Origin: Bifidobacterium actinocoloniiforme DSM 22766
Lineage (GTDB): Bacteria; Actinomycetota; Actinomycetes; Actinomycetales; Bifidobacteriaceae
Length of the DNA stretch: 64,000 nucleotides
Direction of reading: 5' to 3'
NCBI RefSeq assembly: GCF_001263395.1
Contig: NZ_CP011786.1
Coordinates: forward strand, 620,001-684,000
Shown: piece by piece, positions 30,394-39,417 of the stretch
Layout: each line of letters starts with the position of its first letter
Numbering within the stretch: position 1 is the stretch's first letter
Notes under the pieces: model-generated
The model's input: only the letters and a program-made list of their open reading frames with translations
Told to the model about the DNA's origin: nothing
Databases searched by the model: none
Made by a program: the position numbers and the translations under genes

Positions 30394-33030
30394 TCACATC
30401 TCGAGCAAGTCCTCGATGGGACCTACCTGGTAATCGATGAAGACCGCCTGCCCTTCAGCCTGGGTGGCGTCAAGGTCCACTACCCCGGCTATGCCCCAGT
30501 CATGATCGCCCTCCACATCATCGAAGACCTGACGGACCTTCCAGACGTGTTCGGATTGCTCCTTGGACTCTTCCAGGGTGAGGAAATCGGCCGAGCGCGC
30601 CTGCTCGTCGATATTGATTGCCTCGTGCGCCTCGTACAGGTCATCCAAGGCGTCCTGCCAAGCGCGTAAGCCGTAACCCCAATCCGCGTCCAACCGGGCC
30701 AACTCCTGGGGGTGGTCGAAGGCGACGAGCTCGGTCCGGTGGAACATCGCGTTACGCACCAGGACCCGCAGGGCCCGGCGGTCCTGAACCACCTGCCCCT
30801 CCCCCTGGGGCGGCGCCGCGTTCAAGTCGGCGGTTGGCCCAACCGCGCTCTGCCCGGCCGCCTCCCATTCGTCCACCAGGGAGGAGTCGACCGAACGCAC
30901 CACCAGCCCGAGCCAGGCGATCACGTCGTCCAGGCGCTCGTCCAACATCTCGTCGGGCACGGTACGGCTCAGAGCGCGGTATGCATCCGACAAATAGCGC
31001 AGAAGGGTCCCCTCGGAGCGCGAAATGCCGTAGCGGGCTATGTAGGAGTTGAAGTCGGAGGCGGTCTCCAGCATGTCGCGCAAAACTGACTTAGGGCTCA
31101 GTTCGAAGTCGTTGGCCCAGGGCACATCGCGCCGATAGCGGTCGAAGGCCTGCCCTAGCAGCTCTTCCAAGGGTTTGGGGTAGGTGACCTCCTGGAGCTT
31201 GTCCACGCGGTCCTCGTAGTCCATGCCCTCGGCCTTCATCTCCTGCATCGCCGCGTCGCGCGCCTGCCGCTGCTGGGCACGCAGAACCTGGCGGGGGTCC
31301 TCCAGGGTGGCCTCGACCATCGAGATCAGGTCCATGTCGTAGTCAGGCGAATCCGGGTCCAGCAACTCCAGGGCTGCCAAGAGGAAGGGCGAGAGTGGCT
31401 GGTCCAGAGCGAAATCCTCAGGCAGGTCGACGGTCGTGTCGTAGTCGGGCCGCCCATCCCGACCGGTCAGGACCTCGATCACGCCGGAATCCTCCAAAGT
31501 TTGGAAAATCTCATCGGCCCTGGCGCGCAGGTCCTCCTTCTCCCTGGGGGTCTGGAGGGAATCGTCGATTACCTGGTCCACGCGAGCGCGCGCGTCGCCG
31601 CCTTGGGCCACCTCGTTCAGGACCATCGAATGGGTGATCTTCAACCGAGCCTTCAAGGTCTCAGGCTGGGAGGAAATCAGGTGGTCGAAGGTGGTTTCGC
31701 TCCAGGCGACGAAACCCTCCGGCGCTTTCTTGCGCTTGATCTTCTTGAGCTTCTTCGGATCGTCTCCCGCCTTGGCCAGGGCCCGTGCGTTCTCGATCTC
31801 ATACTCGGGCGCCTCGGCCACGACCAAGCCCTGGGTGTCGAAGCCCATCCGTCCGGCCCGCCCGGCTATTTGGTGGAATTCGCGTGAGCGCAGACGGCGC
31901 ATCCGGCTGCCGTCGTACTTGGTCAGGGCGGTCAAAAGCACGGTGTGGATAGGCACGTTGATGCCCACACCTAGGGTGTCGGTGCCGCAGATGACCGGCA
32001 GCAACCCGGCCTGGGCCAACTGCTCGACCAGGCGCCGGTACCGTGGCAGCATTCCCGCATGGTGGACGCCCACCCCGGTGCGCAAGAGGCGGGAGAGGAT
32101 TTTCCCGAAGCCGGTCGTGAATTTGGTGCCGGCTATGGCATCCTTGATCCTCTCACGGTCCTGCTTGCTGGACACCCCGGAGCTGGAGAGGGCTTGCGCG
32201 GTTTCCAGGGCCGCATCCTGGGAGAAGTGAACGATATAAATCGGCGTGTCCCGCTGTGTGATCAGACCGTCGACGGTGGTGGCTGGAGGCGTGTCCACAT
32301 AGCGGTAGGACAGGGGCACGGGCCGGGGCGCATCGGCGATCACGTCCACCTCGGTCCCGGTGCGCTCGCGTAGGGAATCCGCGATCGCGCTCACATCGCC
32401 CAGGGTGGCGGACATGAGCAGGAACTGCGTATCGGGAAGCGTCAGCAGGGGCACCTGCCAAGCCCAGCCCCGCTCTGGGTCGCCGTAAAAGTGGAATTCA
32501 TCCATTGCCACGCAGCCCACGTCCGCCGACCGGCCCTCGCGCAGGGCCTGGTTGGCCAGGATCTCCGCTGTGCAGCATATGACCGGAGCGTCCGCGTTGA
32601 TGCGGCTGTCGCCGGTGATCATGCCGACGTTGTCGCGGCCTAAATCGCGTACCAGGTCGAAGAACTTCTCCGATACCAGGGCTTTGATGGGCGCGGTGTA
32701 ATAGGAACGGCGGCCGGTGCACAGGGCGATGAAGTGCATGGCCAGCGCCACCATCGACTTTCCTGATCCGGTAGGCGTGTTCAGAATGACGTGATCGCCG
32801 GCCAGGAGGTCCATGACCGCCTCCTCCTGATGCGGCCAAGGCTCTATCCCCTTGGCCCGGACCCAGTCGAAGAAGCGCTCGTAGAGGTCGTCCTCGCTCA
32901 GGTTCCTGGCCTCACCTGAGGCAGGGACCAGGGTCGCCAAGGCGCCAGGCGACGTCAAATCCTCTCCCGCTGGACCTGATGGGGGCTGAGAGGGGGAGGC
33001 AGCGGATGGGAAAGACCGGGAAACAGACAT
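30394..33030 (-). CDS. Ski2-like DEAD/DEAH-box helicase (DUF3516 type)
   Basis: 878-residue superfamily 2 helicase. Motif I is NTPTGSGKSMVAL, motif II is the variant AMDEFHFYGD (DEFH box), motif III is LMSATLGD, and motif VI is QIAGRAGRMGFDTQG. The long C-terminal half (from about residue 440) matches the actinobacterial DUF3516-type extension rather than known nucleases. Relatives are described as RNA or DNA helicases of the Ski2 group, but the role in actinobacteria is not settled. The N-terminus is Ser/Pro-rich and likely flexible. The ATG at 33030 has only a poor ribosome site (TTGAGCC). rarA follows, hinting at a genome-maintenance role; this is inference. Confidence 0.88.
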   Translation of the reverse strand: MSVSRSFPSAASPSQPPSGPAGEDLTSPGALATLVPASGEARNLSEDDLYERFFDWVRAKGIEPWPHQEEAVMDLLAGDHVILNTPTGSGKSMVALAMHFIALCTGRRSYYTAPIKALVSEKFFDLVRDLGRDNVGMITGDSRINADAPVICCTAEILANQALREGRSADVGCVAMDEFHFYGDPERGWAWQVPLLTLPDTQFLLMSATLGDVSAIADSLRERTGTEVDVIADAPRPVPLSYRYVDTPPATTVDGLITQRDTPIYIVHFSQDAALETAQALSSSGVSSKQDRERIKDAIAGTKFTTGFGKILSRLLRTGVGVHHAGMLPRYRRLVEQLAQAGLLPVICGTDTLGVGINVPIHTVLLTALTKYDGSRMRRLRSREFHQIAGRAGRMGFDTQGLVVAEAPEYEIENARALAKAGDDPKKLKKIKRKKAPEGFVAWSETTFDHLISSQPETLKARLKITHSMVLNEVAQGGDARARVDQVIDDSLQTPREKEDLRARADEIFQTLEDSGVIEVLTGRDGRPDYDTTVDLPEDFALDQPLSPFLLAALELLDPDSPDYDMDLISMVEATLEDPRQVLRAQQRQARDAAMQEMKAEGMDYEDRVDKLQEVTYPKPLEELLGQAFDRYRRDVPWANDFELSPKSVLRDMLETASDFNSYIARYGISRSEGTLLRYLSDAYRALSRTVPDEMLDERLDDVIAWLGLVVRSVDSSLVDEWEAAGQSAVGPTADLNAAPPQGEGQVVQDRRALRVLVRNAMFHRTELVAFDHPQELARLDADWGYGLRAWQDALDDLYEAHEAINIDEQARSADFLTLEESKEQSEHVWKVRQVFDDVEGDHDWGIAGVVDLDATQAEGQAVFIDYQVGPIEDLLEM

Positions 33031-33234: not shown

Positions 33235-36200
33235 CTATTCGTCTTGTCCCAATCCGGAGAATCGTTTGAAGAAGACGCTGAGCTTGTCGATGACATGCTG
33301 TTTCTTCTCTCCAAGGCCTCCCCTGGCGACGAATCGTGAGATGGGCGGAAGGATGGCCGTAATGGACGTGCCGCTTGTCTGCAAGGTGCCGTTACGGAAA
33401 GACTCCTTGATGAACTGCTTCGTCGGTTCAGCCTTGAGGTGCTCTTCATCAATGATGGACTGAAGCTCCTCCTGACGTCTGCGGTTGAGGAAGGTTCGCC
33501 ACTGCTCATCCACCGTCCCATTCATGGATACCGAACCGACAAAGGCGTCGATCAGATCCTTCTTGTTGCGCAGCGAAGGGCTGGCTGAGACGGCCTTGTT
33601 GATCTCGGTTCGTATCTCCTTGTCCTCGCCGTTGCCATGCTTCTGCCGGTATTTGTCCACCAGCATGAGGATGTAGTCGACGTTCACCTCGGTCTGCTTG
33701 ACCAGCTCGATTTCGAAGGTCAGATCATCGTTGATGTTCTCTTTGTCGGCCTTTTCTGCTGACCGGAAAGTCGAGTATAGATCCAGGTAGACGCTCCGGT
33801 AATCCTGGCTCTCCCGTTCGGACAGGATCTCCTGACCCTCGAAGTCATCGAAACTGGTGAGGATGTTCTGCAACCTGAGGATGCTGCCGAAGAGCCCAAC
33901 GAAGTTCTTCTGCTCCTGTTCGCTCCCTATCCGCTGCCCTATCGGATAGGAACCGAGCAGCTCCTGGACCTTTTGTTTGTATTCCTCGTAGTAGTCCTTG
34001 AAGGGCTTGAGCAGCACGATGCCTTGGGCGTCCTTGTTGCCGAAGAGTTCCAAAGCCTCATCGGTTTCCTTCTCAAGGTTTCGGAAAGAGACGATATTGC
34101 CGTATGTCTTTACGGAGTTAAGAATTCGGTTGGTCCTGGAGAAAGCCTGGATCAGTCCGTGCATCTTCAGGTTCTTGTCGACGAAGAGCGTGTTCAAGGT
34201 GGTCGCATCGAAGCCGGTGAGGAACATGTTGACCACGATGACCATGTCGATCTCGCGGTTCTTCAGCCGCATGGAGAGGTCTTTGTAGTAGTTCTGGAAC
34301 TTCTCTGAGCTTGTGTCGTAACTCGTCTGGAACATGTCGTTGTAGTCAGCGATGACGTCTTCGAGGAAGTCACGGTCATCCTTGCTTAGGGCCTGGGCGC
34401 TGCAATCCTCGTCGTCCAGGATGCCGTCCGTTTCCGCCTCGTTGGGTGCATAGGAGTAGATCAGTCCAATCTTGAGCCGTTGGTCCGGGGCAAGATCGGC
34501 CTGCTGATGCTGGAATTCGATGTAGTAGCGTTTGGCGGCTTCAATGGAGGCTGTGGCGAACAAGGCGTTGAACCCATGCACCCGCCGGGACTGTTTGATT
34601 TCCTCAACCTTGCGATGGGAGACAATCACATCCTCGATGTTGGTCACCACTGAATGCTGGTAGCTGTCCATCCGTCTGGTCTTCTGGGCGAAGTGATCGA
34701 GAGTGTATCTGACGATCTGGTAGATTCGTCTGCTGTCGAGCAATGCCCGCTCGGTGTCGATTCCGGCGACCTGGGTATCCGTCACCCTTCCTTCCCCGAT
34801 GCTGTCGACGTAGTCGATGCGGAAGGGAAGGACGTTCTTGTCACGGATCGCATCGACGATGGTGTAGGTGTGAAGCTTGTCGCCAAAGGCCTGTTCGGTC
34901 GTTCTGAGCTTGGGTTTGCCGCCGGTTCCTGAGTTCTTGGCGAAGATGGGTGTGCCAGTGAAACCGAAGAGGTTGTATCGCTTGAAGGCGTGGGTGATCA
35001 TGGTGTGCATGTCGCCGAACTGGGAGCGATGGCACTCGTCGAAGATGATCACGACATGCTGACCGTAGACCGGATGGTCAGGGTTGGCCTTGATGAAGGT
35101 CGACAGCTTCTGAATGGTTGTGATGATGATGCGGGCGTTGGAGTCCTCCAGCTGCTTCTTGAGCACCTTGGTGGAGGTGTTGGAATTCGCGGCCCCCTTC
35201 TCGAAACGGTCATACTCCCGCATGGTCTGGTAGTCGAGGTCCTTTCGATCGACAACGAAGAGAACCTTGTCCACATCGGCCATCTGGGTTGCCAACTGCG
35301 CCGTCTTGAAACTGGTCAGGGTTTTGCCTGATCCCGTCGTATGCCAGACGTAGCCACCTGCTGCTCTGGTGCCCAGCTTGCGGTAATTGGTGGACTGCAC
35401 GATGCGCCGCAGGATGCGCTCCGTGGCGACGATCTGGTAGGGGCGCATGACCAGCAGCAGGTTGTCGGCGGTGAGGACGCAGTACTTGGTCAGGACGTTC
35501 AGAATGGTGTGCTTCGACAGGAAGGTCTTGGTGAAGGAGCGCAGGTCCATGATCGGTTTGTTGGTGGCATCCGCCCACCAACTGGTGAACTCATAGCTGT
35601 TGGAGGTCTGCCTCCGCGTCGACTTGCCCTGTTTTGCAGCCTCACCGATTTGCTGACGCCGTGTGGTGTTGGAGTAGTACTTGGTAAGGGTGCCGTTGCT
35701 GATGATGAAGATCTGCACATACTCGAAGAGGCCGGACCCAGCCCAGAAGGAATCACGCTGGTAGCGGTTGATCTGGTTGAAGGCCTCCCGCAGGTCCACG
35801 CCCCGCCGCTTGAGCTCCACATGGATCAAAGGCAGACCATTGACGAGGATGGTCACATCATACCGGTTCGAGTACTTGGCCTTACCTCCGTCTGCTTGAC
35901 CGGGGACCTCGTATTGGTTGATGACCTGAAGCTTGTTGTTGTGGATGTCCTTCTTGTCGATCAGCATGATGTTCTTGCTGCTGCCGTCGTCTCGGCGGAG
36001 CACCTGAACGCTGTCACGCTGGATGTGCACCGTCTTCTCCGTTATGCCCTCGTTGCTGTCGGTGATGCTGGTCTTGAAGAACCGCTCCCACTCCTCGTCG
36101 GTGAAGACGATATGGTTCAGATCCTCGAGCCGAGCACGGAGGTTGGAGATCAGATCGTCCTCGGTGTGTATGGGCAGATACTCGTATGCCTGCGATTGTA

Positions 36201-36342
36201 GGATTCGGATGAACTCCTTCTCGAGCTCGGCCTCCGACTGGTATTCAGCCTGCTCAGCAGCCGGAGCCTCATATTCGGCAACGACGGTACTCTCCGAAGA
36301 CAAGGCAATCGGATCAATCAGATATGCGGCTGCTTCGTTCAT
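33235..36342 (-). CDS. hsdR: Type I restriction enzyme, HsdR subunit
   Basis: 1035-residue translocating nuclease subunit. The N-terminal PD-(D/E)xK nuclease is visible as YDVTILVNGLPLIHVELKRRG (in parts: Asp of YDVTIL, then Glu176-x-Lys178), followed by QINRYQRDSF. The SF2 motor has Walker A HTTGSGKT (Gly337-Thr341 region), a DECH box (Asp435-His438) in IIFDECHRSQFGD, GFTGTPIF as motif III, and the motif VI region LIQAFSRTNRI. The C-terminal helical domain should dock on the methylase core. It overlaps hsdS by 4 bp (ATGA) and ends the operon. Full length with no frameshift, so it is expected to be active. Confidence 0.95.
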   Translation of the reverse strand: MNEAAAYLIDPIALSSESTVVAEYEAPAAEQAEYQSEAELEKEFIRILQSQAYEYLPIHTEDDLISNLRARLEDLNHIVFTDEEWERFFKTSITDSNEGITEKTVHIQRDSVQVLRRDDGSSKNIMLIDKKDIHNNKLQVINQYEVPGQADGGKAKYSNRYDVTILVNGLPLIHVELKRRGVDLREAFNQINRYQRDSFWAGSGLFEYVQIFIISNGTLTKYYSNTTRRQQIGEAAKQGKSTRRQTSNSYEFTSWWADATNKPIMDLRSFTKTFLSKHTILNVLTKYCVLTADNLLLVMRPYQIVATERILRRIVQSTNYRKLGTRAAGGYVWHTTGSGKTLTSFKTAQLATQMADVDKVLFVVDRKDLDYQTMREYDRFEKGAANSNTSTKVLKKQLEDSNARIIITTIQKLSTFIKANPDHPVYGQHVVIIFDECHRSQFGDMHTMITHAFKRYNLFGFTGTPIFAKNSGTGGKPKLRTTEQAFGDKLHTYTIVDAIRDKNVLPFRIDYVDSIGEGRVTDTQVAGIDTERALLDSRRIYQIVRYTLDHFAQKTRRMDSYQHSVVTNIEDVIVSHRKVEEIKQSRRVHGFNALFATASIEAAKRYYIEFQHQQADLAPDQRLKIGLIYSYAPNEAETDGILDDEDCSAQALSKDDRDFLEDVIADYNDMFQTSYDTSSEKFQNYYKDLSMRLKNREIDMVIVVNMFLTGFDATTLNTLFVDKNLKMHGLIQAFSRTNRILNSVKTYGNIVSFRNLEKETDEALELFGNKDAQGIVLLKPFKDYYEEYKQKVQELLGSYPIGQRIGSEQEQKNFVGLFGSILRLQNILTSFDDFEGQEILSERESQDYRSVYLDLYSTFRSAEKADKENINDDLTFEIELVKQTEVNVDYILMLVDKYRQKHGNGEDKEIRTEINKAVSASPSLRNKKDLIDAFVGSVSMNGTVDEQWRTFLNRRRQEELQSIIDEEHLKAEPTKQFIKESFRNGTLQTSGTSITAILPPISRFVARGGLGEKKQHVIDKLSVFFKRFSGLGQDE

Positions 36343-36929
36343 GCCCCCAACTCCTTAAAAGTCAACAGCTGATCCCGGTAATATTCGTATTGCTTGTGCC
36401 TCATTTCCAGCTCTGCTTCCAGCGAGGTGAATGAGTCAAGAATCCGTACAATCTCCTTCTGCACTTCCAGAGGTGGAACTGGTATGGGCAAATCGTCGGT
36501 GTCTTTTACGCTCAGTTGTGGAATTTTGACAGAAGTTGATTCGGCCAGCTGCTGTAATCGGTTAACCTTGGTGAGTAGAAAGTAGTAAACAAATTTTTGG
36601 TCCACGCATGAATCTTGCAGACTATAGGACCAAAGTTCCGATTTATGGGTAAATGGCTTGTCATAATAGCTAAAACCGATGTGACCACGTGATTTAACGA
36701 TGATGCTTGGTTCATTGATAATATCTTTTTGGGGAACGCAATCTTCTCGGACATCCGCGATCGTCTCGCCTCCGGCGAATATTCGTAAGGGGCCTGGCTG
36801 ATTCGCAAGTTGGCGCATCCTACCTGCAGTAATTTGGGTTCCGTGGTTTCTCCGGCCCAACGAGGCAAGTGGTTTGAATTCAACTCCGTCTGGGCAGAGT
36901 TCTTGAATAAGGTCATTGATTCTGCTCAT
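36339..36929 (-). CDS. hsdS: Type I specificity subunit HsdS, half-length (one TRD)
   Basis: 196 residues, about half of a normal HsdS (roughly 390-420). It has the standard N-terminus (LIQELCPDGVEFKPLASLG), one target-recognition domain (GTQITAGRMRQLAN to about LPIPVPP), and one conserved coiled-coil segment (LEVQKEIVRILDSFTSLEAEL), ending RHKQYEYYRDQLLTFKE, which is a typical true HsdS C-terminus. Both ends are canonical and both overlap their neighbours by 4 bp, so this is a deliberate half-protein, not a frameshift. Two copies would have to dimerise to make a full specificity unit, predicting a symmetric bipartite recognition site. The TRD part is strikingly AT-rich compared with the flanks. 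Confidence 0.85.
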   Translation of the reverse strand: MSRINDLIQELCPDGVEFKPLASLGRRNHGTQITAGRMRQLANQPGPLRIFAGGETIADVREDCVPQKDIINEPSIIVKSRGHIGFSYYDKPFTHKSELWSYSLQDSCVDQKFVYYFLLTKVNRLQQLAESTSVKIPQLSVKDTDDLPIPVPPLEVQKEIVRILDSFTSLEAELEMRHKQYEYYRDQLLTFKELGA

Positions 36930-37852
36930 GCGAAATAGTCCTCATCGATTCGTACAACCTTTACCGTCTCCTTTGTTTCCACTCCAATGCCGTAAGCAAT
37001 CATGAGTTGAGTGAGCCGTTTGCCGTCGATCAGAATGATCCGGCTTGGAACTTCCTGGGCATATTGGACCGCCCCTGAGCTAAAGCTGCTGGTGGTGATG
37101 AACAGGCCTCCGTCAGCCTTACCGCTCAATGCCCCGACAAAACTTTGCACTTCCGGACGGTGCACGGAATTAGTGCTTCCGTATCGTTTGGCCTGGATGT
37201 AGATTTTACTCAACCCAAGGGCATCCTGATCGATGATTCCGTCAATGCCACCATCGTTGGTCAGCCGAGTAACTGTCCCTTTTCCGTGCGTGCCACCATA
37301 TCCCATGGCAATGAGAAGGTCCATAACGACATATTCGAAGAAGGCCGGTTCTCGTGATTGAATCATCGAAAGCAGCTCGGCAGCCACATCGCTATTGATG
37401 CGCTCGACACCTTCCTCGATCATCTCGATTGGGTCTAATGCTGTACAGTCACTCAGACGGTTCGCTTTCGGAACTGCGGTATCTTCAATGATTTCGGTAG
37501 CGCCTTTTCGTACCCACCAATTATCGTCAGGCTTCGCTAAGGCCCTCAAGTCTTTTTCGGTGATGGCTACTGGATACTGCTTAAGTAAGGTGTGGCCGAT
37601 TTCAGTAATTCTGTATTGCCCACGAGATGGCCTCTCAATTGCATCGACACGATTGAGATACGATACGGCCCAGGTTATGCGATTTTCGGCAACTGGCTGA
37701 CCAGAAGAGAGCTTTGCCGTTTTTTGTGAATCACTTAATGCGCAGAGCGTTGTTACTTTATGGCGCAGTTCATGGACTGGAAGAGTCTCTCCAGTAGATA
37801 AAACAGCCAGGACCGGGTGGATGAACTGTTCCCAAGTCGGTAATCCTGTCAT
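36926..37852 (-). CDS. Mrr-like restriction endonuclease embedded in the type I operon
   Basis: 308 residues: an N-terminal Mrr-type winged-helix domain (about 1-95, with ITWAVSYLNRVDAIERPSRGQYRIT) and a C-terminal PD-(D/E)xK nuclease domain of the Mrr_cat family. The catalytic pattern is in NDGGIDGII (Asp204) and IYIQAKRY (Gln220-x-Lys222), the D...QxK variant that defines Mrr. Known Mrr proteins cut DNA carrying foreign methylation (type IV). Here it overlaps hsdM upstream and hsdS downstream by 4 bp each, so it is made together with a methylase. Composition is lower in GC than neighbouring core genes. It could be an accessory nuclease to the type I complex or an independent type IV enzyme. 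Confidence 0.85.
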   Translation of the reverse strand: MTGLPTWEQFIHPVLAVLSTGETLPVHELRHKVTTLCALSDSQKTAKLSSGQPVAENRITWAVSYLNRVDAIERPSRGQYRITEIGHTLLKQYPVAITEKDLRALAKPDDNWWVRKGATEIIEDTAVPKANRLSDCTALDPIEMIEEGVERINSDVAAELLSMIQSREPAFFEYVVMDLLIAMGYGGTHGKGTVTRLTNDGGIDGIIDQDALGLSKIYIQAKRYGSTNSVHRPEVQSFVGALSGKADGGLFITTSSFSSGAVQYAQEVPSRIILIDGKRLTQLMIAYGIGVETKETVKVVRIDEDYFA

Positions 37853-39417
37853 GCCGAGCCCTCCAAATCCGCCACGATTGCGTCTATCTGCGTTCTCAGC
37901 GCCTGCTCGCGTTTGACTATCTCGTCAATGCGCTGGTTGAGTTCATGGATGTCGATGTGCTCGCTGGTGTCCTCTGGCTGCACGTAGCTGGATACGGCGA
38001 TGTTGTATTCGTTCTCGCCGATTTCCGAATTTTGGACCAGCTTGGTGCGGTGTTCCACATCCTTGCGTTGTGTGTACCAATCCAGTATCTGCTGACGATT
38101 ATCGGTTGTGAGCTTGTTCTGGTTGCCTGAGTGCTCGAACTGGTCGGAGGCGTCGATGAACTGTATGCCATTGTCTCTTTTGGACTTCTTGAGCACGATG
38201 ATGCAGGTGGCTATGGTGGTGCCGAAGAAGAGGTTCGACGGCAGCTGAATCACCGTATCCACATAGTTGTTGTCGACCAGGTACTTGCGTATCTTGCGCT
38301 CAGCCCCACCACGGTAGAGCACGCCCGGAAACTCGACAATGGCCGCCGTACCGTCTGTGGACAGCCATGAGAGGATGTGCATGGTAAAGGCCAGGTCGGC
38401 CTTGGAAGGTGGGGCCAGCACCCCTGCGGGCGCGAAGCGTTCGTCGTTGATGAGCAGAGGATTGTTCTTGCCCTCCCAATGGATGGAATAAGGCGGATTC
38501 GACACGATGGCTTCAAAGGGCTCGTCATCCCAATGGGCGGGGTTCGTCAGGGTGTCTCCATGCGCCAGATCGAACTTCTCGTAGTTGATGCCATGGAGGA
38601 ACATGTTGATGCGTGCCAGGTTGTAGGTGGTCAGATTGATTTCCTGACCGAAGAAACCTCGATGGACGTTCCTCTCTCCTAAGACCTTGGCAAACTGGAG
38701 CAGGAGGGAACCGGACCCGCACGCCGGATCATAGACCCCATCCACCTCGGTCTTGCCGACCACGGTGATGCGGGCCAGAAGCTCCGATACCTCCTGCGGA
38801 GTGAAGAACTCCCCACCCGACTTACCGGCCTGGGAGGCGTACATGTTCATCAGATACTCATAGGCGTCACCGAAAGTGTCGATCTGAGTGCCCTCATCGA
38901 CTCCCAACTGCATGTCTCCGATGGCGTTAAGGAGTCGAGCCAGCTTCTTGTTGCAGTCCGCGACGGTGGGACCGAGCTTGTTGCTGTTGACATCAAGATC
39001 GTCAAAAAGGCCCTTGAGGTCATCCTCGCTGGGAGTGCCCACTGCCGAGCCTTCGCTGTTCTTGAAGACCCGCTCGAGCGTCTCGTTAAGATTCTCGTCG
39101 GTCTCGGCCTTGGCTCGCACGTTTGCGAACAGCTCGGAGGGAAGGATGTAGAAGCCCTTCTCCTGTACCGTGTCAGCCCGTCCGAATTCAGCCTCATCGT
39201 CAGTGATCTTGGCGTAGTCGAAATCAGTGTTGCCGGCTTCGCGCTCGCCCTTGTTGAGGTAGACCGTCAGATTCTCCGAGATGAAGCGATAGAACAGCAG
39301 GCCCAGCACATAGGATTTGAAATCCCAGCCGTCCACTGACCCACGCAGCTCATTGGCCATCTTCCAAATCGTCTTATGCAGCTCTGCACGCTCTGCTTCC
39401 TTGGAGCCACGCGCCAT
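37849..39417 (-). CDS. hsdM: Type I DNA methyltransferase, HsdM subunit
   Basis: 522-residue N6-adenine methylase subunit. The N-terminal helical domain (residues 10-160) is followed by the SAM-binding motif DPACGSGSLLLQF (from Asp230) and catalytic motif NPPY (Asn307-Tyr310, in SNPPYSIHWEG). The C-terminal helices (AVSSYVQPEDTSEHIDIHELNQ onward, in parts) contact HsdS. It is the first gene of the four-gene defence operon; the ATG at 39417 has GAAGGA upstream. A weak promoter pair (TTGAAC, TATAAG, spacing 15) lies just before. Early methylase synthesis would protect the host before HsdR is made. Confidence 0.95.
   Translation of the reverse strand: MARGSKEAERAELHKTIWKMANELRGSVDGWDFKSYVLGLLFYRFISENLTVYLNKGEREAGNTDFDYAKITDDEAEFGRADTVQEKGFYILPSELFANVRAKAETDENLNETLERVFKNSEGSAVGTPSEDDLKGLFDDLDVNSNKLGPTVADCNKKLARLLNAIGDMQLGVDEGTQIDTFGDAYEYLMNMYASQAGKSGGEFFTPQEVSELLARITVVGKTEVDGVYDPACGSGSLLLQFAKVLGERNVHRGFFGQEINLTTYNLARINMFLHGINYEKFDLAHGDTLTNPAHWDDEPFEAIVSNPPYSIHWEGKNNPLLINDERFAPAGVLAPPSKADLAFTMHILSWLSTDGTAAIVEFPGVLYRGGAERKIRKYLVDNNYVDTVIQLPSNLFFGTTIATCIIVLKKSKRDNGIQFIDASDQFEHSGNQNKLTTDNRQQILDWYTQRKDVEHRTKLVQNSEIGENEYNIAVSSYVQPEDTSEHIDIHELNQRIDEIVKREQALRTQIDAIVADLEGSA

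Follow-up and report, generated by a model that had tools for sequence, protein, structure and literature searches.

EcoprrI (prrABCD) is a type IC operon of M, S, and R genes with an extra nuclease gene embedded in it (PMC3874165, PMC12707154), and in this respect it resembles the locus described here. However, its extra gene encodes the PrrC anticodon nuclease, for which guard behavior is proven, whereas the half-length S gene belongs to our locus. In Escherichia coli K-12, mrr lies beside the type I genes in the immigration control region mrr-hsdRMS-mcrBC, and Mrr and type I methylation share one cell (PMC2481252, PMC12707154, PMC5379014). There, mrr flanks hsdRMS rather than separating hsdM from hsdS, and EcoKI is a type IA enzyme. 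Immigration control regions of both E. coli and Listeria combine type IV with type I enzymes (PMC12707154, PMC10059834), and such a pairing is documented for McrBC, whose genes are codirectional with type I genes in an operon-like arrangement (PMC11090510). Unlike the single-chain Mrr, McrBC consists of the McrB GTPase and McrC, and it is associated with type I genes without being described as inserted between hsdM and hsdS. Type IV/type I linkage in general is already published, and an mrr gene between hsdM and hsdS is a variant of it; our search of the literature outside REBASE and most subscription journals returned no description of that placement.

The closest solved relatives of the type I subunits at our locus are those of EcoR124I/II, which has a full-length HsdS of 404 aa with two TRDs. 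EcoR124I/II is not known to carry an embedded mrr. One-TRD S proteins are represented by EcoR124I-delta50 and EcoDXXI-deltaC, half-S derivatives of known enzymes that recognize palindromic split sites such as TCA N8 TGA (PMC3874165). The half S described below instead belongs to a natural operon, where any activity it has is putative.

An mrr gene within a type IC operon

The window, meaning the whole 64,000-nucleotide stretch of DNA that was analyzed, spans C1:620001-684000 of a genome consisting of one contig of 1.83 Mb. Four genes lie in tandem on its minus strand, with neighbors overlapping by 4 bp as read from the ORFs and junction sequences:

37849..39417, minus strand: hsdM, 522 aa, type IC m6A methyltransferase subunit with motifs DPACGSG and NPPY present
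37849..37852, minus strand: ATGA overlap of hsdM and mrr
36926..37852, minus strand: mrr, 308 aa, Mrr-family nuclease
36926..36929, minus strand: ATGA overlap of mrr and hsdS
36339..36929, minus strand: hsdS, 196 aa, half-length subunit comprising a single TRD, a conserved helix, and a C-terminal-type tail
36339..36342, minus strand: ATGA overlap of hsdS and hsdR
33235..36342, minus strand: hsdR, 1035 aa, type IC restriction and translocation subunit

ORF calls and domain assignments confirmed the four genes and exact 4-bp overlaps reported in the first-pass annotation, which had also placed the nuclease gene correctly, to the base, at 36926-37852. Pfam recognized N6_Mtase and HsdM_N in HsdM (also confirmed by NCBIfam TIGR00497), Mrr_N and Mrr_cat in Mrr, Methylase_S in HsdS, and HSDR_N, SWI2_SNF2, a T1R_D3-like domain, and EcoR124_C in HsdR. 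PADLOC assigned the mrr gene to mREase_IV (E 8e-73), in agreement with Pfam. Assignment to type IC follows from the EcoR124_C domain and from the solved structures, among which HsdM, HsdS, and HsdR are each closest to EcoR124 (E 1e-184 for HsdM against EcoR124 M and E 1e-234 for HsdR against EcoR124 HsdR).

The overlaps are not special evidence for the inserted gene, and we rejected them as such: relatives of the operon that have no mrr show a 4-bp ATGA/GTGA overlap directly at hsdM/hsdS, and the hsdS start that follows mrr is of the same kind as the hsdS start in mrr-less operons. They therefore indicate cotranslation rather than a unique lock. We likewise rejected a replacement of HsdR by Mrr, since this operon and every complete relative with the same gene order have a full hsdR.

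The operon has a G+C content of 50-57%, with its minimum at hsdS/mrr, compared to 63-66% in the DNA that follows hsdR (28-33 kb). This dip fits horizontal acquisition, although G+C is likewise reduced, to 55-59%, in the genes at the opposite end of the operon. We compared the operon flanks with those of the same-genus operons L079, L138, and L139 and with L163/L164 and found no match, so that no conserved integration site could be demonstrated. Consensus scans for promoters and terminators gave nothing above chance. Just downstream of hsdR, in the higher-G+C DNA, window positions 30394-33030 hold a DEAD-box/Ski2-like helicase gene (878 aa) that looks like core genome.

An apparently intact Mrr and a half-length HsdS

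The Mrr protein has the architecture of a type IV enzyme, with N-terminal Mrr_N and C-terminal Mrr_cat domains over the Pfam cutoff and the residues of a PD-QxK active site located by alignment of relatives:

37580..37834, minus strand: Mrr_N winged-helix domain, residues 7-91 (PF14338, E 2.5e-20; also in the model)
37001..37357, minus strand: Mrr_cat nuclease domain, residues 166-284 (PF04471, E 2.9e-32)
37334-37336, minus strand: E173 of the PD-QxK active site
37241-37243, minus strand: D204 of the PD-QxK active site
37187..37195, minus strand: Q220-A-K222 of the PD-QxK active site

E173, D204, Q220, and K222 are kept in nearly all of 74 relatives and are invariant in 36. An AlphaFold2 model has a mean pLDDT of 86.5, with a poorly ordered linker at residues 118-131. 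A sequence search of Mrr against the PDB gave no match, and we therefore compared folds; the nearest solved folds to the model are those of MspJI and AspBHI, both modification-dependent enzymes. One Mrr from E. coli records is 36.7% identical to the window Mrr over 99% of its length. The domains, kept residues, model, and E. coli alignment point to an ordinary, apparently intact Mrr, for which modification-dependent cleavage is predicted from family membership. Purifying selection acts on mrr genes in this position: their pairwise dN/dS of approximately 0.11-0.15 is similar to that of hsdR and of most hsdM pairs.

The first-pass annotation had not mentioned that hsdS is a half subunit. At 196 aa with a single TRD, it lacks the two TRDs in one chain that are typical of type I, whereas every complete relative fetched whole has a full-length HsdS of about 370-470 aa. 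Its TRD half shares 68% identity with the first half of the L157 S protein. A full hsdS contains two homologous repeats, and recombination between them is the likely origin of the half gene. By analogy with the half-S derivatives of EcoR124I and EcoDXXI, which recognize palindromic split sites (PMC3874165), a functional HsdS homodimer is plausible, and a natural half HsdS would predict a palindromic split methylation site. As a half S can act as a dimer, we describe the locus as an operon derived from type IC that carries a half S. We found no second half-S gene near the operon, and the other S genes of the genome adjoin other hsdM genes elsewhere. With a half HsdS, type I function may be weak or lost.

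The gene order recurs in other genomes

Genome sets from the genus (27), the order (396), and the phylum (396) were searched for Mrr relatives, whose flanks we then inspected. The order hsdM-mrr-hsdS-hsdR was found in eight other genomes: it is complete in six (L079, L083, L084, L085, L086, and L087), runs up to a contig end in L082, and has a decayed hsdS/hsdR in L080. For example, L079 belongs to the same genus and its Mrr is 69% identical to the window Mrr, and L085 has an extra gene between hsdS and hsdR. All eight share the 4-bp overlaps at hsdM/mrr and mrr/hsdS, and recurrence at this scale exceeds chance. An order unique to this strain would have spoken against the first-pass annotation, and the recurrence removes that objection.

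In L080, hsdM and mrr are intact, and in the following ORF (L080:8019-8966) the start of HsdS runs directly into the C-terminal domain of HsdR; this deletion eliminated type I restriction while sparing Mrr. In L094, where the order is M-S-mrr, the Mrr ORF is intact although hsdM is split. Each of these decayed loci is a single case.

Other Mrr branches occur in differently ordered type I operons. The order M-S-mrr is found in L090, L094-L098, and L115 and R-S-mrr in L114 and L136; mrr follows hsdR in L120 and L121 and precedes hsdM in L119, L091, and L130. Pairing of Mrr with type I systems thus probably arose more than once, and many other Mrr relatives are free-standing or within other systems. 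Plasmid records also hold Mrr relatives, and those inspected do not have the order hsdM-mrr-hsdS. One candidate, L081, had suggested a link by its Mrr identity of 53% and was set aside, as its 10-kb contig has no type I genes. At L016, L017, L018, and L020, a dnd-like gene set encoding an SMC-like protein and a class V aminotransferase immediately precedes Mrr, and a UvrD/NERD helicase follows it.

The hsdM/hsdS boundary is an accessory slot

We searched for HsdM relatives in the order, read their operons, and compared 49 related HsdM loci. The hsdM/hsdS gap is empty in 34 and holds mrr in 9, a RhuM-family gene in 3, and an unknown gene encoding 271-276 aa in 2; in the remaining locus, mrr lies immediately ahead of hsdM. 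Given related operons with an empty or differently filled gap, mrr resembles a cassette that occupies an accessory slot. The mrr state requires 7 changes on the HsdM tree, with at least 4 forced by well-supported branches; 57 of 500 label shuffles required as few. Both the HsdM and Mrr trees are quick ones, in which gains are indistinguishable from losses. The nine slot Mrrs fall within one group of ten (SH-aLRT 95), whose tenth member, L088, adjoins an oppositely oriented type I operon, and are essentially one lineage. Divergence is unequal by gene within the same pairs of loci (hsdM dS 0.014 versus mrr 0.31 for L083/L086; hsdR 0.037 versus mrr 0.33 for L083/L087), which points to mosaic exchange. 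Together, these observations describe an Mrr lineage that is dedicated to a single slot of type IC operons and comes and goes there. With mrr in the slot at 9 of 49 HsdM loci and about seven changes on the tree, the earlier description of the nuclease as locked inside the operon is too strong.

A second accessory slot is the hsdS/hsdR gap, occupied in L085, L147, L152, L154, L155, L161, L167, and L172. Scanned genes from this slot have DUF4357 or RAMA domains, with a borderline GIY-YIG match in L085 and no Pfam match in L172; the L152, L155, and L167 genes were assigned from the similarity of their sequences. In L142, the slot holds an AAA_13-like gene, identified by a weak match. Type IC operons hence have at least two accessory slots with exchangeable genes, of which Mrr is one occupant, and one may ask whether type I enzymes commonly carry backup effectors, as in EcoprrI. 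The natural role and substrate of Mrr are poorly defined, and its place in a slot raises the question of whether Mrr usually operates together with a type I system.

The RhuM-family occupants of the hsdM/hsdS slot are in the related type IC operons L151, L159, and L162. The 271-276-aa proteins in that slot (L138:3650-4480 and L149:8570-9385) have CxxC pairs and no Pfam family over the cutoff; a HEPN identity considered for them found no support from Pfam.

Possible roles of the embedded Mrr

The reading that we favor, with little better than even confidence, is that Mrr serves as a second, coexpressed nuclease that is largely autonomous, targets foreign-modified DNA, and ignores the marks of its host. 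The gene is placed at the hsdM/hsdS boundary of an EcoR124-like type IC operon. HsdM together with a pair of half HsdS subunits would place m6A at a palindromic split site, and DNA that does not carry that mark would be cut by HsdR. Translational coupling would lead to Mrr being produced in step with the type I subunits, and Mrr, acting largely alone and tolerating the host's own marks, would cut foreign-modified DNA, including phage DNA modified to evade the type I enzyme. The operon would then impose two complementary checks, with mrr as a swappable module and not a core subunit. Intact Mrr ORFs beside decayed hsdS/hsdR (L080) or a split hsdM (L094) favor autonomy and suggest that the type I complex is dispensable for Mrr.

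A combined type I/type IV defense had been proposed in the first-pass annotation, and with the order recurring it is still the most economical interpretation. The paradox seen there, of a methylation-dependent nuclease made together with a methylase, is weak: E. coli K-12 pairs mrr with hsdRMS, and the present genome has other methyltransferases of the m6A type. Should those be active, Mrr would have to tolerate several host marks, which fits an enzyme whose target range is limited.

The main rival to this layered defense, which we nonetheless regard as unlikely, is a guard: a self-harming Mrr would be silenced by the type I complex and freed when a phage inhibits restriction, then damage the DNA of the infected cell as a DNA-cutting counterpart of PrrC. 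EcoprrI, likewise type IC, has an embedded effector silenced by its complex (PMC3874165, PMC12707154), the RhuM-family genes that share the slot belong to proposed toxins in restriction-modification loci (PMC3710099), and tetramers of EcoKMrr are latent whereas its dimers are genotoxic (PMC12707154). The single dedicated lineage of slot Mrrs also fits a guard. However, although an effector gene embedded in a type IC operon is shared with EcoprrI, only Mrr-type domains exceed the Pfam cutoff here, and the ABC ATPase and HEPN parts of PrrC are absent. The intact Mrrs of L080 and L094 are hard to explain if type I subunits restrain Mrr, and mrr was repeatedly gained or lost on the HsdM tree.

The dedicated lineage could instead mean physical partnership with the type I complex. 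In its strongest form, to which we attach still less weight than to the guard, the slot Mrrs would be dedicated type IC partners that dock on HsdM/HsdS, stay silent while the complex is intact, and are unleashed upon phage inhibition. If true, Mrr would be a DNA-cutting PrrC counterpart, and Mrr, RhuM, and others would be interchangeable effectors of one operon slot.

Ranking just below these is a passenger role, about which we are doubtful, with the hsdM/hsdS boundary as a frequent landing place for defense genes and Mrr tied to the operon only by shared transcription. Several unrelated genes fill the hsdM/hsdS and hsdS/hsdR slots, Mrr is often found outside type I operons, and the clustering of mrr on the HsdM tree is close to that of shuffled labels. 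On the other hand, 9 of the 10 Mrrs of the clade sit in exactly the hsdM/hsdS slot, the 4-bp overlap coupling is kept on both sides of mrr, and other Mrr branches are also within type I operons.

Least probable, in our estimate, is methylation policing, in which Mrr would harm the chromosome after gain of a rival methyltransferase or a switch in hsdS specificity and thereby keep the resident system from being displaced: EcoKMrr induces SOS once a sensitizing methyltransferase is expressed (PMC12707154), McrBC is able to kill cells upon foreign methylation of the genome (PMC2614495), and hsdS varies strongly among close relatives of these operons, but several other methyltransferase loci are already in the genome, the half HsdS hints that this operon has tolerated a change of specificity, and the proposal overlaps the autonomous second nuclease while requiring no special tie to the type I operon.

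Other methylation loci in the genome

We found no m5C methyltransferase (PF00145) in the genome (G000). A second complete hsdM-hsdS-hsdR type I system, without mrr, lies at L184:5612-12050, and an hsdM-hsdS pair with no adjoining hsdR lies at L183:5739-8829. At L185, an N6_N4-type methyltransferase is located amid prophage-looking genes (terminase-like, HNH).
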